From contig OZ017749.1 of assembly GCA_963969365.1 (NCBI GenBank), positions 3,658,001 through 3,722,000 on the forward strand: DNA of 64,000 nucleotides, given 5' to 3'. Origin of the DNA: Asterochloris sp. CNOR1 (taxonomy: Eukaryota > Chlorophyta > Trebouxiophyceae > Trebouxiales > Trebouxiaceae). A program made the translations under genes and the position numbers. The notes under the pieces were generated by a model, which saw only the letters and a program-made list of their open reading frames with translations, was not told where the DNA came from and did no database searches. Of this stretch, positions 2,486 through 64,000 are shown in pieces. How positions within the stretch are numbered: position 1 is the first letter of the stretch; every line of letters begins with the position of its first letter.

Positions 2486-4103
2486 ATGAGTGAGGCCTTC
2501 CCAGACTGGCAGAGGCAGCTGCAGGCAGCATCATCCAAAAGCCCAGATGCCAAGCATGCATTTGTGGCCACTGTGAGCTTGCTGCATGGCAACTGGGACG
2601 CCACATCATCAACAATGGCACCTGCCTTGCATGCAGACAAGGCCAGATGGCACTCCAGCTGTGCGGGCCATGGGATTTCTGGGCTTTGCAAAAGGCTCAT
2701 CAGATGTGATCCTTCAAACTCATGCGCAGTGAGCAGCTATGACTGAGCCTTGATGCTGCGCCCCTGCTGTCACTTTCTGTTTCCTGTGTTCTGTACGCAA
2801 GCTCAGGCTGACGCAAGAGCCACGACGCTGCGAGGGCAATGATGCCCCAACAGTCTATCTGTAGCACCCATGCCTGCTGCAGGGGCCATTCTGCGACAAT
2901 GGCAACCTGCCTGTACAGCCTGTGTGCGGCCCTCCCACAAGCTCCTGCCTGCTTCTGAAGCCACAAGTGTTGTCTTTGCTGGTCTGTCTGTGGCACCCTT
3001 ACCAGCTCGTGCCTGCTGCAGAAGCCACAAGGCTGAGCACCTACAGCACAACCCCTGCGTCGAGATCTGCATCTATGCACACAAGACCTCTGAGCAGTTC
3101 AGGATACGGGGCAAGCTGACTGTCATTGGACCAGGCCAAAGTGATGAGGTAAGCACTTCATGCTGCATGAGGCACCCCGGCTTGTCAGTCAGCCTGGGCG
3201 AATGTGTTCTGCTGGCCAGTCCGGGCACGGCTGCTTCAAGCTGAGATGAGTATAACACATGTGCGTAGCTGCTCATCTTTATAAAGGGGGGAGCACAGCT
3301 GCACACCAGAACGCTGGCTGCCATGCTGCCTGCAGGCGTTGTGCAATGAGCGGCAGAGGCAGTGGGCTCTGCAGATGCCATCGTATGTCAGGTGTGAGGG
3401 CCTCAGAAGCAGGCAGACCACACCACTATTTGCTGCACTGTCCTGCCTCGACCAGTCCTCAAAGCCCACAATGTGACACTGCTTTTTCCTGTCGCAGCCA
3501 CTATCTGCAGCCCCTTCCAAGCCACTGTGCTGCTGCACGGGGCAGAAACCCCTTGTGTGATGGCTGTGTGCAGGAAGTGGTATGCTTCCAATCGCCCGCC
3601 TGGCCAGCCGCTGCAGGAGCCTGATGTTTTGCTGCAGAAGGACATTCCCTCCAAAAAAGTGATTGCCGCCAGCAAACTGCAGCAGGCATTGCCACCTCTG
3701 CTGCTGGCGCCCGCTGCATGAGTTTGTGCCTGGGGACATGTCCGCAGCTTTGATAGCACTCATCTGGCCCAACACTGCGAGTTCGTGCAAAGTGCAGGAC
3801 GGCCCGCCAGACAATTTCCTGGTCCTGCTCCTGCATCCCTCCGAGGTTGACTATGTTGAACTTTCCCATGACATCAGGTAAATCCTTTGTGCCTCATTCT
3901 GTCCCTGCTGGTATTGGCAAGAACGCCTGCGCTCAGCTGTCATTCAAGGACTGCACTGCAGAGCAAAGTACTTCCGCCTTGAGGACGACCAGCGCCAACA
4001 TGAGGACCCAAAACTGGCTGCTCAGGTGGCAGCTGCATTCAGGCAGAAGCCCAATGGGCAAGACAAAGCGCTGCTCTGGCGCAAGCAGGATGTGAACCCC
4101 TAA
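2486..4103 (+). CDS. PPOX-class (Alr4036-type) FMN-binding flavoprotein, pyridoxamine-phosphate-oxidase-like
   Basis: Proposed exons are 2486-2572, 2638-2728, 3047-3148, 3336-3391, a less certain one from about 3573, 3798-3877 and 3962-4103 (stop TAA). The protein starts MSEAFPDWQRQLQ, like the W-x-QLL start of Alr4036/plant PPOX proteins. Exon 2 gives the DGTPAVRAMGFLGF strand (family form DGRPSNRTVVFRGF). Exon 3 holds HNPCVEICIYAHKTSEQFR then IRGKLTVIG, matching the FMN-site strand 'EQFRI.G.L'. Exon 4 gives NERQRQWALQ, exon 6 FLVLLLHPSEVDYVEL, and the end is WRKQDVNP, like plant 'SEKVNP'. The family binds FMN in a split-barrel dimer; the substrate is uncertain and a classic PNPO role is not shown. 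The gene is convergent with the ATP17-like gene. Family confidence is high; the exon 5 boundaries are not resolved. Confidence 0.8.
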
Positions 4104-4276
4104 GTCCCTGGCAGGGCTGCCTGATGATACCACAGCTGTGCTGCCCAACCCCCAGCCGTCCTTCTGCCATGCAGCACAGTTCTTCATGTGTGACTGCTGT
4201 TCAGTGTTGCAGTGAATGCTATGTTGACACTTGGATTTCCATGTGGTTCATCACAGGCTCACTCTGCACTCATGTA

Positions 4277-4468: not shown

Positions 4469-5326
4469 TCAGACGCTATAGCCAGCGACAGAGAAGCCTC
4501 GCCCAACAATCTCGCCGACGCAGTACCAGGCATACACCTCGCCTACAAAAAGGGCGTAGGTGCCCACCTGCAGGCAACATAAGCCCCTGCTGTGCTGACA
4601 CACACCATGGGCATTAGGTAGGGCAGGTCACTGCTGCACTTTCCCAGACCATGCACAGCATGCATAAGCAGCCCAGGGTGGCTAGAACGTAGCCTGCGCA
4701 GCTCAGAGGCCGTGCCAGCAGTGCCTTTTAAATACACTGCATGTAGCATTTGTTGTGTAGCAATGTGCACATTGTGCGATTTTGACCATAAGTTGCACAT
4801 GCTGGCAGCAAAGGGATAGCCTGAGCGCACCAGCATGTGCAAGCAGCCTGTGCATCTCAGCGGTGACCCCCAGCTATCCACAAAGCCGCCCTCAAGCACA
4901 AATAGAAATAGCGCTGCAGTCCTCCGCTGTGCATGCGCACCTCTGTGAGGGGCAGTTCTGACCGCTTTGACCAGGTCTGCTTTACCTCGCCCCACTCCTT
5001 TTTGCTGTGGTTGATGACGTCTGGTATCCTGCAGAGTATGGGCGCACTTGTGAGCGATGAGATTCATATGGTGAGGTGGTTCATCTCGTAAGCTAGCACA
5101 TGGAATGCAGCCATCAGGTCCACCACCTAGCCATCTTGGTGAAGAACCACTGCTTGAAGAGCTTGTCAGCCTGCGCCTGGTCCTTCACCACGTATTGCTT
5201 GTTCTTTTCGAGGGTGGCATTAAAGTTCTCCACTGCATGCTTCTCTGCGAAGCTGTAGGCTGGCTTGAGGGTCTGAGAGGCCTTCTGCACAAGCCCGTTC
5301 ACCCTGCCAATCACGGCTTGTGCCAT
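4469..5326 (-). CDS. ATP17-like mitochondrial ATP synthase-associated subunit
   Basis: Three exons join in frame to 128 codons: 5326-5127 (ATG at 5326), 5028-4941 and 4567-4469 (stop TGA). The first exon reads KASQTLKPAYSFAEKHAVEN then ATLEKNKQYVVKDQ. Exon 2 reads IPDVINHSKKEWGEVKQTW. The last exon reads LFVGEVYAWYCVGEIVGRGF. These blocks match, in order, the plant mitochondrial protein At4g30010 (ATP17; LLEKNKQY, the IPGRY region, FAWYCAGEIAGRG). It is a small inner-membrane component of the F1Fo ATP synthase, with one C-terminal hydrophobic helix. An earlier GTAAAG donor at 4985 was set aside because continuing to 4941 restores a block that aligns with the plant protein. The start faces FAM98 across a short divergent promoter. 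Confidence 0.85.
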
Positions 5327-5606: not shown

Positions 5607-8600
5607 ATGGATGTGGACATGGAAGGGCGCGCTGCAGACCTGCTGGATCGCCTCCTTGACTGCGGGTGGGTCTGGTGAAGTAGCACATGGTTCTGGCAGG
5701 GCTGCCTGCATTCAGGATAACTTATGTGCTGCAGTTTGCCTGTTTGCTACCTCGATAACGGCAGCCGGGGATTCAATGCACCAAGGGCCTCTTCACACCC
5801 TCATGGCAATGTGGGTCTGTGGGTTTTTGTGAGGCAGCTGCAGGGCTGTGCAGCGGCCCTGAGAACGCACTGTCTGGCAAGCTTGCCTGTGTGGAGTGGC
5901 CGCCGGTGTGTGCCTCATCAGGGGTACCCAGGCCTGGCTGTTCAAGTGCTTCCGTGGGTGCTGCAATCGCTGACTGGCAGCGTATGCCCAACTGCCAGCC
6001 GTAACATGGAAGCCACATCAGAAGCCAGGCGCCTACATAGGTGGCCCCACCGGCGAGGCTAGGGTGGGCCATAATGGCGGGGTGCCACAGTCTGCTGCCC
6101 TGCAGCTACCTGATTTTGAATGAGAATTCAGACCACAAGCTTGTGCTGAGCAAAAGTGAAACGACGTTTTCCATGCCCCTGTGCGGAGCAAGTGCAAAAC
6201 AATTGCAAGGCCTGCATCCTATTGTGTGCTCTGCAGCCCCAAGGATGGGAGGAGTGACCTCACTGCTGCCTCTGGGACTGGCAGTGTCATCTGAGCTGTG
6301 ATGCCCAGACGTGTTCTGAGCTGCACAGAGCACAGGGGGGGCTGTGGTTCCACATGCAGCCTTGGCTTTGGAATGTGCTAGAAGAGCTTATACCATTCCA
6401 CGTGCAGCAGTGCCTGCTGCCTGTCTGGCCGACAAGCTTGACCATGGCATGACGCCCTGCATGGGTGCTAGCAGCGCATGCAGTTCAACTGGTGGGGAGT
6501 GTGGAACATGTGACATGCCTGGGATCAGGCCTGGATGGTCTTACTGCACTTTTGGGGGCCCCAACAGCTGTGATCTTCTCTGTTGCTTCGACCGACTGTG
6601 AGCTAGGGTATACGGGCTGGCGGGGTCCTGTGGGCAGCAGCGCCTGCCATCGTGTCTACATGCATGTGGGTGTCCAGGCATCGGGCCCAGCATTGGGTTT
6701 GGCTGCACTTGCAGCTGAACCATGGTGGCGAGCAAACTTTCAAGTGCCCTGGCATCTGCATTCGCCTTGGTGACGGTGTGGCGAAGGCCACCTCTTGAGG
6801 CTAGCAAGGGCTCTGAGCTACCACAGCAAAGCAGGGCGGTCCACCATGTGCGGGCAATGGTGCTGCTCCGTGCTGCAAGGCTGGCCATGGCTCCAGCCCT
6901 TGCACAGTGTGCGCCACACCTGATGGAGTTCAATCTTCTGCTGCTCTTGTTCCCGAGAGTCTGTACAGCCTCACAGGGTACTAAGCAACCTGTCTGCAGT
7001 CCTCCAAACCCTGTCAGCTGTGCTGTCATGCTCAGCATGACAGCCATCCTGCCACAGGTTCTGCAGGCAGCAGCGCCTGCCACCCTTGCTGTGCCCAGAC
7101 ATGATACTCAACACAGCATCTGGTGACTTTACATGGGAAGGATAGCCCAGCAACAAGGCGCCAGGCTTTGGCGGGAAGGCTTCAGTACCGCTGGCACCTT
7201 TGTGAGAAAGGATTGTAGCCATGATGAGGCTGATGGATTCCCCTTTGCAAGTCCTCCTGGGGCCGTGAGCATCACAATTCCATCACTGAGCTGTTATGTG
7301 TGGAGCTCAGTCTTGCCTTGTGTTAGTGTTGCATCTGCCGCTGTACACCATGCCTTTCGCGTGCAATCCCCTGGGGCTTAGGGCTGCTCCTCACGATAGG
7401 CTGAAGTGCTCCAGGCTCGTGGCCATGTGTCTCCGACTTGTTGTGTCTGGCATGACCCCAGGCCTGTTTCTGTTTTCTGAACTGTAGTGCCAGACCCTGC
7501 GGCCTGCAGTGATGCCACGCACTTGCCCGAAACTTGTGGAAGCTTGCAGCTGCGGCCCATGTGTCCTTGTGAGCAGGCATGCGGCCCTGTGCCGCATGTT
7601 GGGGCATCAGGATGCAGCCCTGCAAGCAGAATCTCCAGCACCTGCTGCTTGAGATGGTGCAAGGCTTGTGTGGGCTTGCAACTGTTGCCAGAAGCATGGC
7701 AGATTTCTGCTGTGCTTGGCCTCTGCCCATCATGCTTTGGCTCCAGAGTGAGGCCAGGCAGCTGTCTGCATGACACAACTGTTGTCCATTGAGTGCATGC
7801 TGCAGGTCCCTCCATGAGTCACAGCCTCCTCATCGCTTGCATGCCTCTTTGAGCTGACAAGGCAATCATAGCGGCCCGCCACTCAATTGCATCCTGAGTA
7901 GATAGATGCCAGTCCTGCCTGCTGACTTGAGCGCAAGTAGCAGGTGTGTCCTCAGCAAAGCAATCACAAGGCCCTGCAACTATTGCCTGCAGGCCGACCA
8001 ACAGTGTGGCTGTAATTGACCTCAGCAGCGACCTCAACACAAGACCATGCCAATGTTGCCTGCAGGCTGGCCACTGGAGTGGCTGAGGGAGACCTCAGCA
8101 GTGACACAGGCAGCCCGGCAGTCCGGTCCATGTCCAATGAGCTGGTCAGCGGACTGCAGACAATTGCCAAGGTGGCCGCACCAGCAGACCAGCAGCAGTT
8201 CCAGGTGCGTTAAGGGCAGGGGCACTGCATGGTTGACCACTGAAATGGTGTCCCGTCAGGCTGGCTCCTGGCAGGCGCTGTGCCCTGCAGTCCCAAGCGT
8301 GGCCTCTGGTCTGAGTTTGCCTACACTGCATATAGAGGCCTCTGCCCTGTCAAGCTGGGCACCTCTTGTTCAATACGACTCAGCAGGGCTACCATGATGC
8401 ATGGATGCTGTTCTGATGTACATCCGGATGCTCTGTGCCTCCTGCAGCGTGAACAGCACTGGACAGCACTACTGGCTGACAACCTCCCTGCCGTTGTCTC
8501 TCAGATGCCTGCCTGCTGCAAGTATTGCAGGGCATGGTGCACCAGCGCGTCACAGCTGCGCCCCTCCTAACCTGCAGCAACAGCCTGTACCGGGATGCCA

Positions 8601-11600
8601 TGCTTGCCCCAGCATTTGGTCCATGGTGCCCTCTTATCCTACAGGCAAAATTTTACAGCCTCTGTGGGTGATGCTGTGCATGTTGCTCCATCGTCATCTA
8701 GTTGAACCCCGCCTCTTCCACCCCTTGGCCACCATTAAGCGCTGAGCAGCCTCTGTCGGGGATCTCGTGCTTGTCCACTGTACCCTTCCAACTTGCCAGG
8801 CAGGGGTCGACCGATGTGCAGCACTCTGCAGCCTCTGCAGGGGAAGCTGTGCTTGCTCGAAAATCCGGTCCACTGTGCCCTTCCACTCTGCAGGCGGATC
8901 ACACTGCCGCGAGATACTCCACAGCTACTGCAGGGCTGCTGTGCTTGCGTCAGCATTTGGTCCACTACGCCCCTTCCACCTTGCAGGCAGGGTTGGCAGC
9001 CGTCAAGCGCTGCGCAGCCTCCGCGGGGGATGCTGAGAAGGGACGCCTGACGGCTGCACTGGCCAGGGTAGCCAAGGCAGTTGACCCGGACACCACTCAG
9101 CAGGACAGGTGGGGCCTGCCTGCATTTTGGGTCCAGGTTCGAAAGATACATATGCTCTTTGTAAATGAGAAAGCCAGAAATCTCCCCAAACCTCTGCAGA
9201 AGCAATTCAGTGCAAGCAACCTCAGCGGTGGTTGCCGCAGTGCTGCAGTCTTCACCGCACGCATCTCTACCAGCGTTCCCTGTGTTCCACAACCTAATCA
9301 AACACCCTTGTTGGGTAGCAGCTGACCTACCTGCTGAGCAGTCAAAACTTGGTTGTGATGGCACAGCATTGCTCCATCGCGCTGCACAACCGACTTCAAG
9401 CCTCTTGTCTGCCAGCATGCTGTGCCTTGTGGCGTGCAGCCTGCACCAGCCTCACTGCAACATCCTTGCCATGATGTGGAGGCTGCGCTGTCCTGCATCT
9501 TGCATCCCAGGTTCTAATAACTAATACCTAATTAAGCCCGGCCTCAATCGAGTGGCAATGCCCCACGGCCCCATCTCCCATACCAGTGCAGGGAGCGTTG
9601 CAGCAGGGAGCGTTGCAGCTGTGCCGGGCTATGTCTCCTGATCAGTTGCTGTGCATGCCAGGCTGGGTTCACTGGAGGTGCAGACGGGGCACCTACTGCA
9701 ACACTGTGCAAAATTGCCCCCAGCCCTACCTGACATGCTGCGTGCCCGCTTGCGTGCCAGGCTGGGCGTCCTGGAGGTGCTGACGGGGCACCTGCAGGCC
9801 GGGCGCCTCCTGCTGGCGGCTGAGCGGGGGCTCCCCGCAGAAGCGCCTGCCAGAGAGGCTGCAGAGGAGCCGATGGCTGTGGTGAGCCTGTTCACTGGAA
9901 AGCGCATATCAGCATGACTGCATGTGTGGACAGGGAACCATGGTGAAAGGCCCATGGCTGTGGTGCGCCTGTCTGAAGGCTTGCGCTGTCATGCATGGTT
10001 GCTAATCAGGATGTGTATGCAGTGGGGGAGCCCTTGGCTGTAGTGAGGGTGTCTCTTAGCTTGGGCACATGAGCCCTCTTGGCAGACATGCAGTAAAAGG
10101 GCCTTGCTGCTGTGGCCTGTCTGGCGGGCTGTGCCCTCTGCCGCTTCTCAGGCAGTGATGCGCTGGTGCAGCACACCCAGAGATCCAAGAGGGTCGGTCA
10201 ACCCTCTGCTCTCTGAGGAGCCCTCCAGCTGCCTGTGCCAGCTGGCTCCACACATGCACAGTTCTCAACTTTACAACAATGACCAGTGCCTACATGGTCC
10301 CCAGATATTGCAGGGTCAGGAGGCTGTCCTGCCAAGGCATGTCACCGGAGTGCTGTGACGTCAAGGTCTGCTGCTGCAGGACACCGGAGGGGAAGCAGGT
10401 GCACGGCATTTTCAGCAACACTGGAACGCATGCAGGCAATGCAGCTAAGATGCCTGCCCAGACTCAGGCCCTCTTTCCAAATCAATCTTGCTGCTGCAGA
10501 ATGCCGGCAGCGATGCAGCAGCCATGGAGGGCCTGTCGGGCGACGCAGCTGAGATGTCTGCCCAGATCCAGGCCCTGGCTTTGGCGCTGCACCTGGACAA
10601 CAGCATCAAGGGGGCGGCTGCCATGCTCAAGTCCATCAATGCCCAGCTGGACTCGCTCCTCCCCCAGCTGCCCCCCGGTTTCTTCCAGCCCATCCTGCCA
10701 GAGGGCAGCCTGTCTCAGCCGCAGGTGAGGCACGCTGGTCGTGTCCTGTTGCCAGGTGTACCACAGAATCAATTGCCTGCAGCTCTCAGGCATTGTTTCG
10801 GGCGCCTTGCAGCTCTCAGGCATTACTCTAGGCGCCCTACGGAAGGGCAGCCTATCTTGGCTCTGGGCGTTTGGCTGGCGGGTATTGTCTCAGGGTACTG
10901 ATGCTTGATGGTAACGCCCTAATGATGCTGCCGCCTACAGAACATGAACCAGCAAAGCATGCAGCTTGGCAGCCGCTGGGTATCCGTCATTCTGAAGGCC
11001 ACGACCATGGCAACAGGTGTATCAGGATCTGCTGCAGGCTTTGTCCTCGACCACCAGCACACACTGCTTCACGAGGGCGCTCCATCTTCCAGCAACTTGT
11101 GTGACTGCAGTTCCTGCCTGCGTAGACACATTACGCGAGTGGGCTGCTCCATCTGGAGGAGCCTGTCTGTATGGGTGTGACATCGCTGCCTGCACAATAT
11201 TGTCTCCTGCTATCCTGGCCACAGGCTAACACCCTTCTGGAGCAGCCTGCCTGATTGAGGGGTCTCCTTGCTGCCTGCGCAACTCAGTCCCCTGCTCTTC
11301 TCAGCTACAGACTGCTACAAATGTCGGCCTGTGTGCAGGTAAGTTGCCCTGAGCGAGATCAATCAGGCACTTCTCCTGCTCTTCTCAGCCTCAGAGTGCC
11401 ACAAACTTCCGCCTGCGTGCAGGTAGATTCCCTGGGAGAGATTAATGAGGCGCTGCGGGCAGAGTACAGCCTGCGCCGGCGCATGCTCATTGAGCGCGCA
11501 AAGGTCACCTTGCAGGTCAGCCGCCAGGGGCACTCTTACTGCTCTAAGAAAAGCATGTCGTTTGTCAACATCAAGCTTCTGCAGGGTTTCCATGTGGTGC

Positions 11601-13385
11601 AGGGCTGCACATGTCCTGCACACGTCCACACTGCTGCATGGACAAGCACCTGTCAGTCACGCAGTACCCTTCCGTGCTGCAGTCCTTCATGTGGGCAGAG
11701 CGCCTGAAGGAGCGGGGCACTGGCAACTCCGCCAAGCAGGCAGCTGCCGCTGGGGAGGCAAAGATGGCACTGGAGCCTGAGGTGGATGTGGCCGCCGTGT
11801 TCCTGGCCAGGCAGAGTGAGGCTTGCCAGCAGCACCTGCTGTTGTATGTGTTGTGGGCAGCAGCAGAGCCCCCTGGCAGCAATTAAATGTGATGCTAAGG
11901 CATCTTCTGGGTGTTCAAGCAGGGCTGTGCAGCAGGCAGATGGGGCAGCAGCGGCGATGTCTGCCTGCTGTCAGATACTGTGCTGATCATGCAGCAGACT
12001 GATGCGCAGCAGCAGGTCCTGTTACATGCTATCAGAGCTCGCTGCATGCTATCAGACCACAGAGGTGCTACCTACACCCTGCCGGGAGCTGTGCAAGCTG
12101 GCTGTGGCGAGCATGGCCACGCGGCAGGCTGGTGCAGCAGCATTGCTCATGGGGCTGGCATGTCTTCCAGCAGCTGCTTGCCAAGGCTGCGTCCTCCCCT
12201 GCTGCAACCCCTCCTGGTGCACTGTCCAGTGGCAAAGCCTACATGCCAGGAGCTGCTTTGTTGAACCGTCACTGCATTGTTCCTCGTCTGGTGATAGACA
12301 GCAGTGCCTTGGTGGCCAGAAGTACTGGCACGGGCCATGATCTGCTATGCCAGCGCCCTGGTCCCTGCCATGGTTGTTTCAATGCATTCAACATGATGGA
12401 GGACAGCAGCGTTGATGACATAACCCCTGTTCTTCAGGCGACCTGGTGCCCATCACAAGCAAGGCTACCAGTGGGGACAAGGGGCAGTTTGAGGCCTCAG
12501 TGAAGAGCGTCATCATGGGGGCTGTGCCTGACCGGGGCGGGCGCACCACCGAGGGACGTGCTGCCAAGGGTGGCGACATGCCCGATTGGAAGCCGCGCAC
12601 TGTGGGCCAAGGTGGGTGACTGCTCTGGAGCCCATGGGTCCATGCCTGACTGGGGCGGGCGCACCATTGAGTGCCAGGCTGCCACAATGAGCCATGGAGC
12701 TGCCACACAGAGCAGTGGAGCTGTCACACAGAGCAGTGGAGGTGCTGCAATGTGGGCCAAGGTGGGGTCTGCGGGAAGGTGTGGCGGCAACGGTAGCAAG
12801 GTGTGCAGCATGTTTTTGAGGTGGGCAGGTAAGCTTCTGCAAAGCTGATGGCTGACTTACTGTACGCTTGTGCAGGCGAAGGCTCCACCGTCCTCTGCGG
12901 GGCATAATGGGCAACTGCTCTTTACAGGGGAACTGCAACAGCTGTGTGCTGCGGAGCATCATGTCTCAGGCAGGGCGCGTTTGGCTGGTAAAGGGCGGCT
13001 GCACAGCAAAGAAACCTGACACTGGGAGCAGCCCACCATTGTCACATCTGGGCATGGCTTGCTTGTCCAGTGGCCTGCGCATGTGCAATGACAATATCTT
13101 TGATTGCATTCATGCAGCGCAGCACTCAGTCGTCAGGCCTGGCGCTTGCTGCAATGGCAAGGGCGCTCAATTAAGTTGCGTTGTGCAGGAGCCTGTTGAC
13201 CTGTAGGCAGGAACAGTCGCGACTGCTGATGGCTTCCTGATGGGCATGTGATTTCCTGTTGCTGGAGCTGCATTCAGAATCTGCAATGTATCAAGGAAGC
13301 ACATATATCTGCAGGAGGTGGCGGAGGCAGAGGCAGGGGTGGCCGAGGTGGTGGCAGAGGCAGGGGCCGAGGCAGAAGCCGATGA
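5607..13385 (+). CDS. FAM98: FAM98 family protein (tRNA-ligase-complex type) with C-terminal RGG tail
   Basis: The C-terminal two thirds is clear. Exons are 9761-9881 (LGVLEVLTGHLQAGRLL), 10500-10724 (75 codons, ends near LLPQLPPGFFQPIL), 11423-11515 (EINEALRAEYSLRRRMLIER), 11683-11815 (SFMWAERLKER), 12438-12611 (VIMGAVPDRGGRTTEGR) and 13315-13385 (glycine/arginine tail, stop TGA). These follow human FAM98A/B block by block, including CRRRMLIKR, QSFGWSDR and MGRVPDRGGR. The N-terminus is probably MDVDMEGRAADLLDRLLDCG at 5607-5665. Exons ending at 8204 and at 8987-9108 are plausible but unproven members. In animals FAM98 joins the RTCB-DDX1 tRNA ligase complex and binds RNA through its RGG box; the same role here is inference. 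Introns contain many decayed exon copies, listed separately. Confidence 0.88.
7978..8115 (+). repeat. Two-copy tandem repeat in FAM98 intron
   Basis: A unit of about 70-75 bp occurs twice. Each copy has a 'TTGCCTGCAGGC' acceptor-like start followed by a related stretch ending in 'GACCTCAGCAG.GAC'. The second copy leads directly into the candidate exon that ends at 8204. The first looks like a decayed echo of that exon's 5' edge. Confidence 0.5.
8620..9108 (+). repeat. Five-unit tandem array of an exon edge in FAM98
   Basis: Related units begin at about 8645, 8726, 8800, 8894 and 8987 (spacing 74-94 bp). Each has a pyrimidine-rich 'CCACTNNGCCCTTCCA' lead, an acceptor-like AG, then a stretch resembling 'GCAGCCTCNGCNGGGGATGCTG'. 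Only the last unit (8987-9108) continues as a long open exon with a clean GT donor. The first four look like successive decayed copies of its acceptor side. Confidence 0.7.
9652..9713 (+). repeat. Decayed copy of FAM98 exon 9761-9881
   Basis: The stretch reads GCCAGGCTGGG and continues in one frame as ARLGSLEVQTGHL. The real exon about 103 bp downstream reads ARLGVLEVLTGHL after the same GCCAG acceptor. The copy then diverges and has no matching donor. It is a tandem exon echo on the acceptor side. Confidence 0.7.
9870..10064 (+). repeat. Donor-side echoes of FAM98 exon 9761-9881
   Basis: The exon's 3' edge and donor, 'ATGGCTGTG|GTGAGCCTG', recurs in weaker form near 9952 ('ATGGCTGTGGTGCGCCTG') and near 10032 ('TTGGCTGTAGTGAGGGTG'). 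Spacing is about 78-80 bp. Each copy keeps a GT at the donor position, so cryptic 5' splice sites are available downstream of the real one. Confidence 0.6.
10376..10604 (+). repeat. Echo upstream of FAM98 exon 10500-10724
   Basis: A 'CTGCTGCAG' acceptor at about 10375 is followed by sequence ending in 'GCAGCTAAGATGCCTGCCCAGACTCAGGCC'-like text (positions 10440-10470). This mirrors the start of the real exon at 10500, which has 'GCAGCTGAGATGTCTGCCC' near 10544. Spacing is about 124 bp. The upstream copy is decayed and does not keep the long frame. Confidence 0.65.
11283..11515 (+). repeat. Echo upstream of FAM98 exon 11423-11515
   Basis: An 84 bp unit is duplicated. 'CCTGCTCTTCTCAGC' starts at 11291 and again at 11375. 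The acceptor GTGCAG precedes 11339 in the copy and GTGCAG precedes 11423 in the real exon. After the acceptor the copy reads like the real exon (GAGCGAGATCAATCAGGC versus GGAGAGATTAATGAGGC) but is out of frame. Confidence 0.75.
12520..12770 (+). repeat. Downstream echo of FAM98 exon 12438-12611
   Basis: The exon segment encoding PDRGGRTTEG recurs 120 bp downstream, near 12645, as PDWGGRTIEC. The donor edge 'GTGGGCCAAG|GTGGG' recurs about 150 bp downstream near 12749. The copy therefore carries both exon text and a donor-like GT. An internal short repeat 'ACAGAGCAGTGGAG' fills the space between. Confidence 0.7.
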
Positions 13386-19611: not shown

Positions 19612-20369
19612 CTGCAGCATACAGCTCCCATCAATGCAGGCACATCATGTCAAGCCTGCCAACAGCATATGCTTGACAGACCTGTTGTGGTGATAACAGT
19701 CACTGCGGCCTTCTGGGGAGTCTGCGGTGCCATTGCCCACACTCCAAGCTTTCTTATGTTGCTGCCTCTCGGTGCCAACCCCTGGCACCCTCTTCTGATA
19801 CGATTGAGAGCTCCCCACCGTTTGATCTGACAAGGAGGGATCCTTACCTCTGCATGCAGCCCACCGTTCCACATGCAGCAGGCAGAAATGTAGTCGATCG
19901 AGTCAACGTGAGTGAGACAGGATTCGGCCAATCCGTGTTCTTGTACCATGCAGGCGTGCAGCCAGTACTGAACTGGCATGGCTGGCCAAGTCATGCCCAA
20001 ATACATGCCTTGACCACATGCTGTGACAGCTGCTTTGCAATGGCCAAATTGCTGCACAAAGTTGCTGCAGGCCAAAATCTGAGGCAGACACCAGTGCTGG
20101 AGCTGTTCAATCCAGAAAGATTGCAATTGCCTCTGACAGGATCAAGATGTCGATGGGCATCCTCCCTGCCAGAGAGGCAGCATACACAGGCAGGGCTCTT
20201 GTCTGCAGCAGCACACATCATTGGCAGCTGGCTCTATTAGGTACACTGCAACATGCAGTTGCATCGGGTCCAGCCTGTGGGCTTATGGGCAATCACGATT
20301 CGGCCGCAGGTACTCCAGCCTGCTGCCTGGAAAGCTAAGCCTGGAGTCATGACATTTGAGGTAATTGAG

Positions 20370-20640: not shown

Positions 20641-21090
20641 ACAATTGCAGGGCAAACATCCGTGCCTGTACTTCAGGGTCAAGAAGAGGTAGGGAACACC
20701 GGCTCCACGTGATGCTGTGCAGAGCTCTTGTGATACATGGCCTGTGGTACTCTAGCCTGGGGGTACGGTCTAGGGAAGTTCAGGAGCAGACCAGAACTGG
20801 TGAACAGCAGGCGCATGTACTCCCTGAGCTGGCCTGCATGGTGTTCTGTGAGAGTCTGGACGTTCTTCATCTCAACCACCACTTTGCCGTTGATGAACAG
20901 GTGACAGTACAAGACACGGAATGTTACGCCGATCTTCTCGATCACAGGTCTCTCAAACTCCACCTGCGAAAGTGGCCAGTAAGTGGATGCTGTTCAGCAC
21001 ATCGGCCATGCGTGTACACATGCGAGCATACATCTGCAGAACAGTGGACACAAGCATGAGGGGTGGGCACAGCATCTGCATATTGGCCAC

Positions 21091-21473: not shown

Positions 21474-22729
21474 TAGTGGCTGACCATTATGATGTGCAGG
21501 CCAGATCGCTCCATAGCCGCACCCTGAAGCTTTCTGAATGGAGCTGTCTTGGCTCCCTAGGGTCTGCAGACCACTTGTGGCCATGCTGATGGGCCCATGT
21601 TAACCAGAGCCTTGGTACCTATCATTTCCATTTATGGGCTTTGCTGAACCTGATGTCTTCTGCAAACAGGTACCCACAATGGCTGCTGACAATACATTGA
21701 TGCCTATGTCTTGCCACCCTTAAAGCTGTGCTCTGCATTCGTTTTGCGATGCAGTGGATGGACGCCCAAACATGAAGCGGGGTCTGGACAGCTTTGCCTA
21801 TGGCAAGCTAAACAAGAAGGGCTGGGTCAGCATCTGGCTAGTGATTGGCATTGCCACAACTGTCTGAGCATTAGCAAGCTGCCCTATAAATACTGTCGTG
21901 CTCGGCAGCACAAACCCTTGATGAGACGGGCTGCAACTTGATGTTAGGATGTATGCCCTCACCAGGTGCCACGGACGTGATGCACACAGGTGCACTCAGT
22001 TGCGCAAAATTCTTACCTCTACGACCTGCAATGGGCTCTGCTTGCCGCTGTTAAGACCAGCAAGACCTCAGGCACATATGCAGGGGAAGGAGGCGCTGAA
22101 AAGCCGCCAGTGCTGGTGCTGAAATTGTTGACCAGGCCCATCAGTGCCAGCACAGAAGCTTATTGGCCCTTTGCTGGTGCACACTTGCTACAACAAGGAT
22201 GGCAGCCTGAGGCTGTGGAGTCAAACAGCTAGGGGAATGAGACCAAGCCAAAAGGATGACATAATTTTCGCATCAACAGAGGAGCGGTACTCTCCAGACA
22301 GGGTGCATCAGGGTCACCAGATTCGGCTGACTCTCGATGAAGATACGCGTGTTAGCTTTTGCAGCGCAACATGCGCAAATGCGTCCCACACTCTGCTTCG
22401 GCAATCCGCATTCTTGCAGCTGACAGCTTTTGCCAGCAGCTCTTGTGCCAAACACACGACTGCTTCAGCCAACTTGGACAACCAGGTAACTGTGATCTCA
22501 CGATGGCATGTTGATTGCCACTCCTCCATCCTCTGCCACCGGCCCACAAGCCTGATGGGCGGGCTTGCCGCTTCATGCCTGCAAAGGCCTGCTTGCTACA
22601 GATGACATGCTATCCTGCCAAAATGGCTGCATAGCATGTCATGTGTAGCAAGCAGTTGCTCAGGCAGGGTGCTGAAGTTTGCCAGCAAGCTGTGGCTCCC
22701 CTGGCAGAGCCCCTCAGCCCACTCTCCAC
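21474..22729. other. Spacer between the two segmental copies, with an unassigned plus-strand ORF
   Basis: The region holds the dispersed repeat at 22390-22630. On the plus strand are two stretches that look coding. One lies around 21753-21830 (RPNMKRGLDSFAYGKLNKKG) after a GATGCAG acceptor. The other is an open frame at 21990-22232 containing QNSYLYDLQWALLAAVKTSK and PPVLVLKLLTRPISAS. I do not recognise either. They might be two exons of a small plus-strand gene or relics of an unknown element. Confidence 0.25.
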
Positions 22730-22871
22730 CTATATATCAGGGACACCCAGGGGCTGCTCCAGCCGTGATTGGGGGTCGGCCACCAGCCTCATCTTGCTTT
22801 TGCTTCTCAGAGAGGATGCCAAAGTCTGCCAGCAAGCAAAGGATCCCCTGAAAGAGCCCCTCACCATCTGA

Positions 22872-55343: not shown

Positions 55344-58300
55344 CTAGGACTCGTTTCGGTTGGCAGTTGGCAAAGAGCGCAGCCCAAATCGGACCAGCAG
55401 GCTCAGGGCACCGATGCCTGTGCAGGCAGCCCACTCCTGCCCTGACAAGGCATGCGTCTGGAACCAGGGCCCGCCAAACTGCACAATGACCACCTGCAGG
55501 CACCAGCACAAGGAAGTGCTGCATTGCTTTACAGACTCAAGAGCCTTCCGACACACAAATCAGCCCCAGAGCTGCAGGCTGCGCACAGCAGCTCCAAGCC
55601 CAGGCTTGCACCAGCAGGTCTTTCACAACAGCAATGCAGCATGTTGCACCTGCAGAGCCAGCTCTGCTGCCAGGATGGTTGTGAAGATCTTGTTGTCAAA
55701 GGCGCCCTCCAGGACATTGGCCTCGTCATATATTTTGCGGGTGTTCACCTGCAGGCAAGCCAGGGCACTGCAGTCAGCCTGTTAGCGCTGTTGCAGCGCA
55801 ACATTCTGCATGCTCATTCAGGGTGTATTGGAGTTGCCTGCTGTTTGCACAGCCAGGGGCAGCCGCCCCAAGCAAGGGAGAGACACCCTGTGAGGATTGA
55901 TGACAGAGCACCCTTATGTGACATGGCCAGCCCGCCCTGCGCTCAGTGCACAATATCCGCCGTCAAACTTCAAGACCAATGCATCCACTCCTTTGCTGGC
56001 CGCACCTCAATACTCCCGGCGTCCAGCATGAACAGCCAGCATAAGGAAGGCAGCAATCCCCAGCCACCCACCTGGTTGAACAATTGCATCATCACAAAGG
56101 CATTGAACACGATGGTGTAGTGTTCGGAGGGGCCCTGCACGCTGGCAGCGGCGGGCACCCCAAAAATGGCATCTCCCTTGAAGACCAGGGTGGCCATCAC
56201 AGCCAGCTGGAAGGTGCTCTGGGAAACAATGTTCTTGACGACCTGCAGGCGTGCACAAGCAAGCTATGTGTTGCTGACTGACAATGGGCATCAACAACAT
56301 CTGCTGGGCATGGTGGGGTGCACTTCCTGAAAGGACCGTCGCATGGCCATGCATGACCGAGACTTTGGACCACATGTGGGCATCACCAGGCTCTGCCAAT
56401 CACACAGGCAGCGCACCTGCCACAATGCTCATGGAAGGCCATGCATGACCCAAAGAGTCGACTCACGATGGGGTCCAGCGAGCTCTACGGAGTGGATCAG
56501 ATGGCAGAGCCTGTGAGGCCCCACCCACAGTGTGCATGACAAGCGCGGACTCACAGTGGGCGTGAGCAGGCTCTGCTGGGCCGAGTAGGGCGGCAGATCC
56601 AGCATGCCCTCCGTGGGGGAGTCCGTGGCCAGCGCCAGAGAGGCCAGGGAGTCCATGATCAGGTTGACCCAGAGCATCTGCACCGCCGTCAGGGGTGACT
56701 CCTGGACGGTCAGGGCGCCCACGCAGGCGGTCGCGACCGCAACAATGTTGACGGTCAGCTGCAGGCAAAAGCAGAAAGGCAGGGTGAGGTGCTGCCTGAA
56801 AGAGGATCAGTCAGAGCAGACTCCTGCGGACAGCAGCCACTGCAGTGTCCAGTGAACTTTTGTGGTGAGTATGCCAGCCAGTTGCAGGCACAGGCAGGAC
56901 GTAAGCTGAGGATGGCTGACTTGAAGGCAGAGAGAGAGGGGCCTCTGCAGGCGTGCGCCATGGCCAGAGTGAAGGGAGTGGCACTGCAATCACGCAGCCT
57001 TGCTGATGGGGTCTTCAAGCCCCCCCGACTACTGCTGCACAGTCCTGCCCAGACTACAGCTCCCCTTGTCTGTATGCTGTCTCATATAATAGAGCTTGAT
57101 GATCCCTGCAGGATGCTCTATCAACAAGAGCAGACAGGACATGGGCAACTGTCCCACCTGGAACTGCAGAAATTTGGTGATCCCTGCGTACACGTTGCGC
57201 CCCCACTTGACGGCATTCACGATGGAGTTGAAGTTGTCGTCAATGAGGAGGATGTCGGAGGCTTCCTTTGCAATGCTGGTGCCAGACATCATGGCAAAGC
57301 CGACGTCGGCGTTCCGCAAGGCGGGAGCGTCGTTGGTGCCGTCACCGGTCATGGCCACCACCTCCGTGGGGGAGTTCTTCAGGGCTGCAGCAGGCACGCA
57401 CAGTGGGGCATCAGCATTCTTGGAGGCAGGCCTTGCACAGAGCAACAAATTCAACCTGCTATGGCCAAATGCTGTGGGGGCTACCTGCAATACCTTGCAG
57501 GCAGCATCATCAGAAGAGTTGTCCCAGCCAGAAGCCTTCTGTTGCCTAAGCAGGCTGTGACATGCTGCACCTGGGCACTTTCTGGAGCAAAGATCGACCT
57601 TTGAAGATGATTCAAACCATTGCGTTTCAGGTGCTCAGAAATCAGCAGAGGTACCCATGTGTCTGGAGGGCCACAGCAGGATGCATTGCCCTGTCGGGGC
57701 CACCTCTGTCGAGGAGTCGTTCATGGCTGCAGGTGGCAATCTAGTACCACAGGGTTGACAGCATGGCACATGGTGACCACAGCTGTGTGGCACACTCTGA
57801 AGCTCGTTCATCAGGCCTCAAGAAGGGGGAGATGAAGGGTCACCATGGCCTGGCCCCAGAACTAATGCAGTGCCTGCTCAGCTGGGCGCTCGTAAGGTGA
57901 CTCAGGGGAAATCTGCATGCATGCTGCAGCTTGTGCTGCCTTCACTGCATGGTACTTTAGCTGCGGGCAGACAAAGGTGGGCAAGGTGACAGAAAGCGGT
58001 CACCCTCATTCTTGCTGCTGCAGGGGTGGAAGCCATGTTTTGCTGAGCTCTGACACCAGGGCCCACTAGGCATGGCAGACCTCCACAATGCTTTCCTGTA
58101 AGGGCACCACCCCTGACCCCAGGCCTCACCTCGTACAATGGTGTACTTGTCCTTGGGAGAGCACCGCGCCAACACCCGCAAGTTGGGCCAGATCGCATTG
58201 AAAGCGGCGTAGTCCACGGTGCCATCTCGGGTCAGCACTGCGTCCCTGAACTGGGGCCCCTCCATCACCAGGGCGGCGTCGCTGGGCAGCGCGGCGTCAT

Positions 58301-61300
58301 TCTGCCGGTCTGATCCTGCAGCCCGGGCGCAGAGACATGTGGAGGAACCACCCCAAGTGGTGGACGCAACGACAGCACTGGCTGCCCAGCAGCGTTGCCC
58401 ACAGCCAACTGTCTGACGCTGGCACACTCACTGGACAGTGCGCCCTGCTGGCCTGGCAACCTCTATATGCTGTGCGTTCATTTGAGGAATGGCGTTGCCT
58501 CTGCGCAGACGCAATTCAGGGCAGCACAACCTGCATGAGTCAGTCTGCATGTTCTGCTCTCATCTGAGGGTGTGCGTGGTGCCCCCTTGTTCTGCATGCA
58601 CTAGATGACACGCAAGGCACTCCACCAGGTCTCAGTTCATTCAAGTGGCACAGCGAGCACCACAGCAATGCTGTCGCCGTCCAGCGGTATCTGGGCACGC
58701 AGTGACTGAGGGAGCCTGGCAGGACACGAAAGGCTCAGGCAGCTCTCTGCCAGCGCACCTGATACCGATGCTGGCCCAGCGTCTGCCACCTGCCCCTCCC
58801 TCCGGCTGGGCTCCCCGCCGGCTGAGGCCCCGTTGCTGCTGGCAGTGGCGACTGCCCCAGCACCGTTGGTGAAGCGTGCAACCATGGCTTCTGGAAGCCC
58901 CACAATGGGGCGGCTGTCTGCTGCCAGGATGCCAGCCTGGCGGGCGATGGACGACCCAGTGGTGGCATTGTCCCCTGCAGGAGTCAGGAGGGGCCGTGGG
59001 TCAGCGCTGGGCAATGCCATCGTGGCACTCTCTGATGCAGTGATCTGGTGATATGGTCACACGCTAGGGTATCAGTGATGACAGTTTGCAGGCAGCCCAT
59101 GGCTTGACTGGTCCAATGTCATCACACAGGCAGTGCGCTGCAGCATCTGATAGGAGGATCGCAACTGATGGGAGAACACATCTGTGAACCTGTACGTTCA
59201 CAGATGCAGGAGGCAATATGATGTGCACATGCCCCTGACAGTGTGTCTCAAATATGAGGGGCTATTGCTAAGCACAACACGGCCAGGTGCCTGGATAAGA
59301 CCCCAACTGCGCTGAGGGAGCTGTAACCGCACCAAACCCCACGCTTGCGCCCCATCGCCAACTGTCAGACTGCAAACTGCCTTGGCTGCCAGCCGTCCTT
59401 GCCTCAGACACCTCAGCAGTCAAATGCTGATAGAGTTTGCTGGATTCATGCAGCCAGGCAATTTTGCTGTGCCTGGCTCTGCCAGCTGCCTCAGCACAAC
59501 CCAGCTAGAACTGCTCTGCTGCAGCTCCACAGAGGTGTTGCAACCCCAACCCACCTGTCATCATGTGAACAGGAACGCCCCTCTGACGCTGGATGCATTC
59601 TGCTGCACTTCATTGTGTATCACAGGGAAATGCTGCTGCTGTTGTTTTCCTCAGGGCGCATGACTCCCAGCTGTCGCAGCAGAGTGGACGGCCCCCTCCC
59701 ACCTGTCAGCATGCGGACAGTGATGCCTGCCCGCTGGCACTGCCGGATGGCCTCTGGTACTTGGGGCCTGATGGGGTCTGCGATGCCCACCAGCGCCACG
59801 AAAGTCATGGCCTGCTCAATGTCGTCTGCCTCCAGCTCCTCAGAGCGGGCACCCTCCTTCTCGGGGAGCCGCACGTCGCGATACGCCAGGGCAAGCATCC
59901 TGCAGAATGGCATTGCAGTCCTCAGCGGGAGTTCTCATTGTGATAAGGGCAGAGTGGCCTGCAGCGCAAGACTGCAGTCCTGGGAGAGACTGCCCCTCTG
60001 CACAGGGGCCAGGCCATTGCTGACGTGAGCACTACATCCCTGCCAAGAAGACAAGCACTCTGTGGTTGAATCTGCCCTGCGCACACACATGGAGACAGCG
60101 CACCAGACTCTCCATTCCAGGTCATACACAGCCTGAAGAGCTCCTGATTGCAGCACACCAACAGCTTCGGACTTCCTGGCAGCGACAGCGCCCCGCCTGT
60201 GTGTGCAGCCATCAGTGCAGCCCGCACAGCATTGCACAAGCGCCCCCAGCAGCAAACAAGTGGTCAAGGTCACAGCCTGAAGCACAGCGTTGCCCACCGA
60301 AGCGAGCTGTTGCCTTCCTCGGCCAGCGCCTCCAGTATGCTGTGCGGCTGCAAGTCTCTCCTTGCCAATCCCTGCCCCACAAGCGACCCATTGTGACATG
60401 TGCAGCCACACAAGTTTAGAGAACAGACCTGTTGCCGTCCTGGCCAAAGGTCTCCAGCATGTCGTGCTTCTGCTGGACGGTGAGCTCAGCCACGCTGCCA
60501 TCCTTCTGCAGCTGCGAGGTGCAGCGCTGCAGCACAATCTCTGCTGCCCCCTTGACGTGCAGGCGGGCATTGATGACTCCATCCATGCTGCAGGGCAAGG
60601 TGTTGAGATTCAGGAAGCACTGCAGAGCAGGGTGGGCGCAGCAGCACACAGCAGGAGGCAGAGCAGCACATGCTGTGCCCAGCAGGGGGGGCACAGCAGT
60701 GAGCAGCTGATGTTACTTGCTGCAGGACATGTCAGCTGATACATGTTGCTTAGGGCTTTTGGTTGCCAGCATGGAGGCCAACCTCCATCCAGTGAGCATC
60801 CCTGCAGGTGCAGCACATCGACACTGCTTGGTGTGCTGCTGTGCAGGCATGGCATCACTTTGCCCTCACCTGGAGCCAGACTGGGAGGTGATGCTGCTCA
60901 TGCGCTTGCGATCCGAAGAGAAGGGGAAGACCTGAAGCATTTTGGTTGCAATGAGGGCTCCCAGCAGCAATGATGCAGAACACAGAATTCCAACAGCCAG
61001 TGAGTGACTTGGATGACAGACTCAGACGAGCGGGGCGCAGCTCCAGTTTGCAAGCTCATGACAAGTATGGGTTTGAGCCTCCAGAGGGGTCTGAGCATCG
61101 ATGATATAGCAGGGTGCAGTTCTCAATGAGCTCAAACGGAAGCAAAACGTGAGATGTACAGTAGCCATGAGGGGGTGAGCACCTGCACAGTGTGGTTGGC
61201 ATCCCGCAGCATTTGATAGTCTGCTCCAAGCTTGCGTGCCAGCTCCAGCAGGGCACACTCTGTACGGTTGCCAATCTTCAGCATCTCCCCTGCAATGCAC

Positions 61301-64000
61301 AAAGTCATATTGATGAGATTGGCAAAGGTTGCAGGAATGCTAGATCTTTAGGAGTTGACGGTGCAGCAAATGTTGGCAACTATGCTCACAAACTTCATTT
61401 GTGAAGCAGCAATACTTCAGTGAAAAGGACACATCTGCATTGCCAGCACTGAGCAGAATGCCCACCTGAGGGTGAGGAGTCCAGCCGCAGGTTGGCGTTG
61501 CTGTTGACAGCAATGCCTGTCACCAGAAGGCTCAGCACATCTGGGTGCAGGGCGAGGGGCGCATCTGGTTTTATCATGCTGCCAACGTCCAGGCTGCTGC
61601 CCGTGCCAGGGTTCCCTGTGACCTCGGTGCTGTTCCTGAACTTGGGCACTCCTAGGACGGGGAGTTGAGCAATGTTCTTGTGGTCTGTGCCAGCAGTCCA
61701 CAGGCGCACGACTTTCATGTCATTCTGTGTGAGGGTGCCTGCAGGCGGAAGTTTGAGCAGGTGGCTGCTACGCAGAGACTTGTCAGGCTGTGCAATGCTG
61801 ATGTCCCTGCCGGGAGGGAGCAACGTGCTGAGACGTTGCTGTGCCATTGTGTGCCCCATGGGCAGGCAGCGGCATGCGTCAGACAGTTCAGGCAGCAGGA
61901 CGTGCACGGCTGGTGACCAACGATCTGGCGGCCTTCTGGAGCCTCTGCTCCTCCCGAAGCAATTGGACACTGCTGCACGCTACATTTGCAGGCTCAAGGT
62001 TGACTGCCATGCAGCTGCACACAGCTCATCATGCCCAGCAGCCACTGGCATTGCTTTTAGCCAGGAGACCAGAACTGATGCCCAGGACAAAGGGCAGCGC
62101 ACCTGTTTTGTCAGTGCAGATGGTGGTGGCAGTACCCATTGTCTCAGCAGCGCCCAGGTGGCGCACCAGGTTGTTGTCTGCCAGCATGCGCTTGACGCTG
62201 TAGGCCAACGCGATGGTCACCGCCAGGGGAAGCCCCTCTGGGACAGCCACCACCTGCAGGCACAGACCATGGGGCCTGATGCAGGTGGGCACAGTTAATG
62301 GTGCCTGATGCAGGGAAACAGCAGTTGCAGCCCAAAGGGGCGGGTCCTTAGGCACCGCCACCACCTGCAGCTACAGGGCGTGCTGCAGCAGCATGGTAGG
62401 CATTTGCTCTGGCTGAGGGTAGGTGCACACCAGGGAACAGGCACCCCATGCCCTGACAGAGAGACCCGTGAAGACCCCAATATGTTGCAAATGCAAGATC
62501 TCAGGGCCAACAGTCATCTGCACAAAGGGACAGGTGCTGTACGAGACACGCACAGTGACAGCCACAGGCAGCTGCTCTGCGACCGCCACAGTCTTAAACA
62601 ACTAAGCACTGCTTTGCGTGAGCAGGCGGCCAGCCATGGCAATCAGAGCCACTGGCAGACGAGCACCATCTGCATAGGGGATGTCATACCGCGTCATATT
62701 GCGTCAGGACTTCTCTGCCGCAGCTGCCAGTTGTGAACATGCCCAGAATGCGGGTAGGTGGATGGCACTGGCTGCCAAAACTGCCCCTAACAAGATGCAT
62801 AGCAAATAGTGTCACTCAAGACCAGCAAAGCATTAGACGGGTACCACTGCACGACCCTGAGACTCACCAGGATTGTGATGGCAATGATCACGAAGTGCAG
62901 GTAGTCAGAGGCAAAGCTCCAGTCCCAGCTCAGCCCGTCCACCACAAACTTCTGCCAGCTGTAGGTCCCTGCCATGGCAGCCAGGCTGAAGGCGGCCGCC
63001 CCCAGGCCAAACTTGCCAATGAGGCCAGCCAGATCCTCCAGCTTGGCCTGCAGCACGGTGCTTTCCCTGCAGGGCAAATGAGACAATGAGTCTCTTGGCA
63101 TCCCGGAAGCCATCAGCAGGGGAGCCATCATGGTCCAGATGTTCTTGGCTTGCCTCCTTGACCTACCCTCTCCCTGCACCTGTCCAGCCATCATGCCCTG
63201 CCACCTCTTTGCTCCCCATGGCGGTCAAGACAGGCCTCGCCAGCAGGCGCCATGAGGGCAGGTAACCTTGTGAGACCCAGTGCTGGCTTGCCTCATGGCA
63301 CCTTTCCACAGTTTGCACCACCCCAGCCAGCATGCACTGCTGGCTGTTGCGCCCAGCAACCGTCGGAACAGGAGGGCAAGCAACCCTTTAGGTCCCACAC
63401 ACCTTGTCCCCTGGCTTGCATCATGGGACATGAGTCTCCTCCAAAGACACTGTACCAGGCCGATGAACAAACCCTGGTGGCTACGGCGCCCCAAGCCAGT
63501 CAAGACAGGCCTCGCGAGCAGGCGCCGTGAGGGCAAGCAACCCCATTGTCGAGTCCCAGGAAATTGTTTCATGTCATTCTGGTTTTTGCGCTGCAGCTCG
63601 TGCCCTGCTACCCTAAACACGTAAGACTGACAACAAACCTCCCCAGCAGGCACCAGTAAGGCAAGCAACATGTGCTCATGTATCTATGGTGAACCCCTGA
63701 AAGGAAGCCACAATCCTGGCTTGCCTCATTGCATCATCCTCCCCCCCTCCCTGCACAAGCCCGGCAATCACGCCCTGCTGACTGTTGCTGCCCACGGCCG
63801 TCACCAGGATGCGCCCATCCCCCTCCAGCATTTTGCTGCCTGAGAACATCATGGGGTCCAGGTGGGGCTGCTTGGCGACTTCATCGGACTCCCCTGTGAG
63901 GTGACTCTCGTCCAGCCTGCAGCACAGCAGTCACTGGTTTGTCTGTCAGAAGGCCAGGCAACAACAACATCTGACTCCCCTGCGAGGTGGCTCTCGTCCA
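55344..64000 (-). CDS. P-IIB Ca2+-ATPase (PMCA/ACA type), 5' end outside window
   Basis: Exons in transcript order: 63916 to about 63735 ([13 protein letters not shown], actuator TGES), 63066-62878 (TM3), 62253-62103 (TM4 [11 protein letters not shown], then CTDKTG), 61738-61466 ([11 protein letters not shown]), 61289-61183 ([13 protein letters not shown]), 60931-60870 ([12 protein letters not shown]), 60587-60429 ([10 protein letters not shown]), 59899-59703, 58974 to about 58770 ([11 protein letters not shown] plus a Ser/Gly/Ala-rich insertion), 58315-58130, 57384-57158 (hinge [11 protein letters not shown]), 56759-56555 (TM6 [18 protein letters not shown]), 56242-56072 ([17 protein letters not shown]), 55748-55650 and 55493-55344 ([11 protein letters not shown], stop TAG). 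It pumps Ca2+ out of the cytosol. The chain ends 15-20 residues after TM10, so there is no long C-terminal calmodulin tail as in animals; any autoinhibitory domain would be N-terminal, as in plant ACAs. Confidence 0.95.
62200..62605 (-). repeat. Two decayed copies of the PEGLP (TM4) exon
   Basis: The real exon begins at 62253 with [19 protein letters not shown]. Upstream in the same intron, a copy beginning at 62364 reads [18 protein letters not shown], and another beginning near 62593 reads [19 protein letters not shown]. Spacings are 111 and about 229 bp. The 62364 copy is preceded by CTGCAG. Both are decayed at the catalytic proline/glutamate region. Confidence 0.85.
63220..63665 (-). repeat. 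Tandem repeat in Ca2+-ATPase intron
   Basis: On the plus strand GTCAAGACAGGCCTCGC at 63223 recurs at 63499 with CAGGCGCC.TGAGGGCA following both. A weaker third unit lies near 63632 (CAGCAGGCACCAGTAAGGCA). Spacings are about 276 and 133 bp. I found no coding match. Confidence 0.75.
63880..64000 (-). repeat. Copy of the TGES exon start at the window edge
   Basis: The real exon reads [13 protein letters not shown] from 63916. At 63970-64000 the minus strand reads [12 protein letters not shown], 86 bp upstream in the transcript. The T of TGES is changed to A. The echo continues beyond the window. Confidence 0.8.

Follow-up and report, generated by a model that had tools for sequence, protein, structure and literature searches.

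Why should the introns of an alga carry repeated copies of the edges of their own exons? The question is raised by a stretch of 64,000 nucleotides from the green alga Asterochloris sp. CNOR1 (assembly GCA_963969365.1, contig OZ017749.1, positions 3,658,001 to 3,722,000, forward strand; hereafter the window), in which a reading of the bare sequence, here called the original prediction, had noticed tandem, decayed copies of exon edges ('echoes') in the introns of several genes. We find that the echoes are real and far beyond chance, and consider it likely that they are neutral relics of local tandem duplication, which are visible at exon edges through selection on the exon.

The material comprised 314 kb in five blocks, that is 0.56% of the 56.4 Mb genome (21 contigs): block A (C4:3608001-3772000), which includes the window, blocks B and C (50 kb each, both on C2), block D (30 kb on C5) and block E (20 kb on C9), the last two being held out of gene-model training. 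The GC content and the dense, short introns resemble those of a green alga. Exons were our own ab initio predictions, made without RNA by a self-trained hidden Markov model, which converged on donors near AG/GTGAGC and acceptors CTGCAG/G (the slash marks the junction). At a total score T of at least 18, blocks A-C yielded 253 exons as compared to 43 on reversed sequence. Exons with T<18 were excluded from edge counts; edge coverage was repeated at T>=25, and array placement used T>=16. Pfam matches support the cation ATPase, ion channel, DUF547 and glutaredoxin named in the original prediction as well as a Pyridox_oxase_2 gene (PF12766, E 1.4e-9), whereas CEP162 and DEP are labels taken over from that prediction. 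A match to DUF2465, for which we take FAM98 to be the label, scores below its Pfam cut-off; we refer to this gene as FAM98-like.

Exon-edge copies and their side of the exon

To quantify the echoes, we compared the 45 exonic bases at each predicted edge with the adjoining intron, allowing gaps and excluding edges with short flanks as well as exons shorter than 45 bp. At a score of at least 14, 61 of 569 edges, i.e. about one in nine, match their own intron. Random introns reach this score at a rate of 0.19% and introns across the exon from the edge at 1.1%, whereas windows taken from an intron match that intron at 5.4%. The expectation that exon edges match their own introns in excess of controls is thereby borne out. 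The alignments cover 33 columns on average, and the echoes lie at spacings of 31-408 bp, 400 bp having been searched; the range of 50-190 bp given originally fits 64 of 102 spacings, the remaining ones falling outside it.

The copies are specific for one side of the exon. Acceptor edges produced 33 high-scoring segment pairs (HSPs) with the upstream intron and donor edges 28 with the downstream intron, as compared to 9.3 and 9.6 with shifted exon maps; these numbers, which count HSPs and include several per edge in places, were reached in 0 of 300 shifts each. On the wrong side of the exon there were only 0 (acceptor) and 3 (donor) HSPs, which agrees with the original assignment of acceptor copies to upstream and donor copies to downstream positions. 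HSPs from edges to confident exon sequence, 9 and 4 in number, showed no excess over shifted maps.

Coverage by local repeats gave the same picture. Such repeats cover 63 of 576 edges versus 0 of 576 at control offsets (1000-1370), and 43 of 313 versus 0 when T>=25 is demanded; in the held-out 50 kb, 5 of 82 edges are covered. Coverage at the edge exceeds that of far intron 2.1- to 2.6-fold over all blocks, and 2.9- and 5.2-fold in the held-out blocks, which contain few edges. The profile peaks from -10 to +30 around the edge, dips from -20 to -50 and rises again from -70 to -150, while inside the exon coverage drops from 0.10-0.13 at the edge to ~0.05-0.06 by +50. The term 'genome-wide' used in the original prediction thus rests on the 314 kb sampled.

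A dispersed repeat family, such as introner-like elements, was rejected: exon-edge windows, on which this result rests, match random introns at just the 0.19% given above, and the distant offsets cover no edge.

Local tandem arrays

Throughout the material, the repeats are local and direct. Exact 12-mers recur at 50-300 bp approximately 7-40 times as often as at most offsets beyond 1 kb (recurrence at 5-10 kb is raised by a gene duplication), and inverted 12-mer matches are near background beyond ~50 bp. Within the window, 66 HSPs with a score of at least 14 lie at offsets of 40-300, as compared to 1, 2 and 1 in equal ranges starting from 1, 2 and 15 kb, and blocks B and C show the same signal, fading by 400-600 bp. 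The echo copies are in direct orientation and close by, neither inverted nor distant, as is the case for local tandem (minisatellite-like) repeats. Duplications between intron sequences are common too: HSPs of at least 25 bp comprise 80 intron-intron and 55 exon-intron pairs (ratio 0.69), of which 12 and 4, respectively, exceed an identity of 0.9. Few local duplications in the five blocks are young, since an identity of at least 0.95 is found in 3 of the 80 and 0 of the 55 pairs.

A permissive search with Tandem Repeats Finder revealed 52 arrays with a period of at least 40 in the 314 kb, as compared to 2-7 in five shuffled controls. Their copies are 60-87% alike, and none exceeds 87%. Placement of the arrays is near random with respect to exons: 17 span an exon edge versus 13.0 expected, a number reached in 248 of 2000 shifts, and 5 lie inside predicted exons versus 4.2 expected, that is, without visible depletion.

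At least two echoes accompany 27 of the 61 edges, whereby second and further echoes were accepted from a score of 11.5, a level open to chance matches, given that 12 is reached by 1.6% of random introns. In 14 of these 27 the second echo lies at 1.8-2.2 times the spacing of the first, about half being irregular; three controls gave 5.4, 4.9 and 7.8 regular edges and reached 14 in 1, 0 and 32 of 5000 draws. Examples are the series 97-188-279-352, at an exon in block A upstream of the window, and 102-205-307 at position 43902 of block B. The echoes had been called too consistent for ordinary minisatellites, but regular spacing is what a tandem array gives, and head-to-tail arrays with a regular period are minisatellite-like. 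Nor do the copies decay away from the real exon, as had been claimed: the nearest echo scores higher at 14 of the 27 edges and the farthest at 13. Inspection of alignments revealed clear exon-edge copies, some with matching intron too. In 11 of 54 echoes the intronic flank matches as well, at a score of at least 12, as compared to 0.5% at random. Copying limited to the exon as a general rule was rejected on these grounds and because whole-unit arrays exist. From regular spacing and whole-unit arrays it follows that a good part of the echoes represent tandem arrays of low copy number, some with one end inside an exon.

The original prediction had located echoes in five genes and probably in a sixth, termed PPOX, and examples were found at all six places (positions in the window):

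2920-3031 (+): Pyridox_oxase_2 gene, copy 2920-2967 of 2984-3031, reaching into exon 3022-3148; spacing 64, HSP of 48 bp, identity 0.79 (the exon scored T 12, below 18, and is outside the edge counts)
7961-8105 (+): FAM98-like gene, array of period 73, 2.0 copies, across the acceptor of exon 8066-8204
8773-9035 (+): FAM98-like gene, array of period 93, 2.8 copies, across the acceptor of predicted exon 8894-9108
9672-9972 (+): FAM98-like gene, predicted exon 9761-9881 with acceptor echo 9672-9694 and donor echo 9950-9972
12597-12766 (+): FAM98-like gene, donor echo 12747-12766 of exon 12438-12611
14539-14919 (-): array of period 175, 2.2 copies, across the donor of DUF547 exon 14808-14999
18612-19145 (-): glutaredoxin copy 1, exon 18612-18740 with three upstream echoes at spacings 148, 281 and 408
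24080-24661 (-): glutaredoxin copy 2, the corresponding decayed array at exon 24080-24235; its farthest echo, 24589-24624 (spacing 398), is the only one to reach score 14
23971-24072 (-): glutaredoxin copy 2, tandem duplication of ~50 bp downstream of exon 24080-24235, single in copy 1
35573-35830 (+): coiled-coil gene (CEP162 of the original prediction), array of period 91, 2.9 copies, across the donor of exon 35455-35604
39176-39322 (+): coiled-coil gene, donor echo 39287-39322 of exon 39012-39195
43457-43718 (+): coiled-coil gene, acceptor echo 43457-43535 of exon 43681-43899 at spacing 183, with a weaker second echo at 368
45632-46137 (-): ion-channel gene, exon 45632-45793 with acceptor echoes 45890-45963 and 46105-46137 at spacings 184 and 342
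56273-56581 (-): cation ATPase gene (originally Ca2+-ATPase), donor echo 56273-56309 of exon 56555-56758
57358-57738 (-): cation ATPase gene, acceptor echo 57700-57738 of exon 57158-57384 at spacing 342
59544-59720 (-): cation ATPase gene, donor echo 59544-59572 of exon 59703-59899
60304-60473 (-): cation ATPase gene, donor echo 60304-60351 of exon 60429-60587
62240-62376 (-): cation ATPase gene, acceptor echo 62351-62376 of exon 62103-62253
63882-64000 (-): cation ATPase gene, array of period 86, 1.9 copies, across the acceptor of exon 63695-63916; 56 bp at 0.91 identity, extending 48 bp past the window end

Two further features of the window were noticed. A small gene of three exons at 4469-5326 (-) resembles, by eye, mitochondrial ATP synthase subunit g, and a long open frame at 30163-32358 (+), 731 codons from stop to stop, is presumably a reverse transcriptase resembling that of long interspersed nuclear elements, again judged by eye.

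The duplicated glutaredoxin gene

A natural comparison is provided by the glutaredoxin gene, which is partly duplicated in tandem (17207-19925 and 22683-25417; 77% identical over a 2.8 kb alignment). The copies are 5.5 kb apart, and their introns are thus present twice. Between them the exons are 0.93-0.97 identical and three introns 0.68-0.77. Each of the three echoes that precede exon 18612-18740 can be aligned with a counterpart in copy 2, for which reason this echo array probably predates the gene duplication.

The repeat at 23971-24072 behaves differently. Its halves agree at 43 of 52 positions, and compared with the single segment of copy 1 they agree at 40 of 52 and 35 of 48; at this counterpart, copy 1 has no local repeat. 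The sequence is best read as one duplication that would have occurred in copy 2 after the gene duplication, the alternative being a loss in copy 1. In this one case a tandem duplication is present in one and absent from the other of two related intron copies.

The region holds additional features. The stretch upstream of the first exon (19592-19925) is 0.93 identical between the copies and thereby as conserved as the exons, which suggests conversion between the copies or an unannotated feature. Between the copies lies a match to PDDEXK_3 (PD-(D/E)XK nuclease-like) at 20763-20912 (-) with E 7e-9, and predicted exon 26446-26514, similar to it by eye, lies in the partner region.

Random duplication and unequal decay as the probable explanation, and its alternatives

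The explanation that we favour is as follows. Short head-to-tail tandem duplications, with units of mostly 40-180 bp and 2-5 copies, would have repeatedly lengthened introns at sites not chosen with respect to exons. A duplication straddling an exon and its adjoining intron would be tolerated as long as the splicing machinery continues to choose the copy with which the exon remains whole, while the other copy would turn into intron and then decay. In a pair of intronic copies both members would diverge, while in an exon-intron pair divergence would come mainly from the intronic member; for this reason, exon-paired duplications would outlast the others among old ones and look like exon-edge echoes. 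That splice choice confers tolerance, that the echoes are neutral and that duplication has recently been rare is what we infer. The mechanism originally proposed, repeated short tandem duplication spanning exon-intron borders, was right in outline, as arrays, regular spacing and the paralog case indicate, but the near-random array placement leaves no need for border specificity.

To assess whether such a process suffices, we simulated random tandem duplication in the presence of a constrained exon; parameters were set by hand and the duplication rate was not matched to absolute coverage, which makes this a sufficiency argument only. At steady state, random duplication was rejected: the ratio of edge to far-intron coverage was 0.6-0.9 and thus below the observed 2.1-2.6, edge matches being too rare and pairs of high identity too numerous (roughly half of all intron-intron pairs exceeded 0.9). 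Omission of duplications younger than 0.15-0.2 replacement events per site raised the ratio to 1.4-2.3 (four sets). With a third-position rate of 0.5 and indels of 0.06/0.12, two runs gave edge/far ratios of 1.90 and 2.26, ratios of own-intron to intron-window matches of 1.75 and 4.05 (observed: 2.0) and ratios of exon-intron to intron-intron HSPs of 0.61 and 0.83 (observed: 0.69), with few pairs above 0.9. According to this model, the approximately twofold excess of partial edge matches is what unequal decay would give when duplications are old. It is conceivable, albeit rather doubtful, that the lineage passed through a phase in which local tandem duplication was intense and which has since all but ended, or that young identical arrays are removed quickly. 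If so, much of the intron sequence would consist of decayed copies of its neighbourhood and exon edges would be a fixed reference dating each duplication; the cause of such a change could be an altered replication or repair activity.

Several observations weigh against random duplication followed by neutral, unequal decay. Arrays inside exons are not depleted, though selection should remove them, and the intronic flanks are unmatched in 43 of 54 echoes, including all 6 with an exonic identity of at least 0.9. In the simulation, which was set by hand and without a fit, a third-position rate of 0.8 yields an edge/far ratio of just 1.0-1.4 for cut-offs of 0.08-0.15. The ratios of 2.9 and 5.2 in the held-out blocks, with their few edges, exceed the simulated values, and the observed identity spectrum of intron-intron pairs is broader than the simulated one. 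Exon-intron pairs above 0.9 make up 0.22 in simulation at cut-off 0.15 as compared to 0.07 observed, and the fall of coverage inside the exon corresponds to the steep end of the simulated runs. Furthermore, the three glutaredoxin echoes are 0.86, 0.77 and 0.82 identical between the paralogs, whereas the pieces between them reach 0.59-0.75, which speaks against full neutrality in this one intron. Finally, the echoes contain 4 in-frame stops in 631 codons, as compared to 10.8 expected if every mismatch were a random change in the echo, a number that is an upper bound, since part of the changes sits in the exon.

The strongest competitor is duplication aimed at exon edges, in which breaks or template switching at splice sites, e.g. 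at the CTGCAG acceptor motif, copy the edge into the intron. Such targeting would account for edge coverage above steady-state simulation, most markedly in the small held-out set, for the coverage peak around the edge and for the unmatched flanks of most echoes. However, whole-unit arrays are not significantly enriched at edges, leaving out young duplications suffices for most of the excess in simulation, and duplications between intron sequences are common too. We therefore regard edge targeting as unlikely.

An even smaller chance is given to functional echoes, that is, alternative or poison exons or decoy splice sites under selection, which would be in keeping with the well-kept glutaredoxin echoes and the low number of stops. 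The echoes had been said to usually still carry their AG or GT, but the exact dinucleotide is found in 22 of 61 (13 of 29 acceptors, 9 of 32 donors); of the 42 echoes whose alignment comes within 3 bp of the junction, 18 have it, while neutral simulation predicts 0.42-0.47 overall and 0.55-0.58 for junction-aligned echoes. Retention is no higher than neutral decay predicts, and splice-site conservation was rejected; the proposal that echoes seed alternative exons is weakened along with it. Junction-aligned donor echoes keep GT in 8 of 23 cases versus ~0.57 simulated, a shortfall that weakly hints that cryptic sites are selected against. In Drosophila, short introns are described as being under selection against stray 3' splice signals (PMC10946897). 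Exon and echo differ at 0.161, 0.149 and 0.246 of first, second and third codon positions, as would be seen if the exon is constrained and the echo is free to change. Differing codons are non-synonymous in 209 and synonymous in 92 cases. Tandem exon duplication giving mutually exclusive exons would keep splice sites and coding constraint, whereas here dinucleotides are mostly lost and changes occur at all codon positions. The short alignments to the 45-bp windows also argue against functional exons.

Fossils of intron gain are more improbable still. In the tandem genomic duplication model, a duplicated exon segment supplies both splice sites of a new intron and leaves direct repeats between exon edge and intron. 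Usually, however, this places a copy of the exon start at the far end of the intron, once and at a spacing equal to the intron length, whereas 27 of the 61 edges carry at least two echoes beside the edge itself. In potato, a duplication crossing an intron-exon boundary is reported in one study (PMC4974935), and accounts of intron gain by tandem duplication (PMC3443670, PMC4974935) likewise involve exon-intron borders or exonic segments; the copies described here are often several and lie beside their own edge, and nothing shows intron creation. That the signal is an artefact, produced by composition, by common splice motifs or by the gene finder, is barely credible. Ab initio gene models and a strong acceptor motif would favour it, but exonic bases alone were used, random introns and distant offsets hardly match or not at all, and several examples lie on Pfam-supported exons.

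Random local duplication with unequal decay also has to be set beside known systems. Thomas et al. (2004) reportedly introduced 'doublets', short paired local duplications. Pace et al. (2009) treat repair-mediated local duplications and discarded pairs lying within 50 bp of each other so as to leave out tandem duplications (PMC2671141). Both resemble the echoes in being short local duplications, but the algal copies form head-to-tail arrays, partly regular, and are at most 87% alike. Minisatellite-like internal repeats that lie in tandem at exon-intron boundaries and alter gene structure there are described in PMC2812944; those are recent, often polymorphic and found in duplicated human genes, whereas the algal copies are decayed. 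Tandem repeats are also more frequent near intron-exon junctions, most markedly in two green algae, according to passages of PMC3887541, whose abundant intronic motif is the dinucleotide GT/AC, in contrast to units of 40-180 bp matching the exon. A Chlamydomonas comparison describes long introns and, in the portions examined, does not mention such copies (PMC8226300). Within the titles and abstract openings of the open-licence literature searched, we did not find the exon-edge echo pattern described.

Taken together, our data suggest that introns echoing their own exons can arise from random duplication and selection on the exon alone, which calls for caution in taking intronic exon copies for cryptic exons. 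Should young duplications prove scarce across the whole genome as well, copies anchored to exons would serve as a clock for a mutational process altered in this lineage, and would point to a source of intron length in a compact genome.

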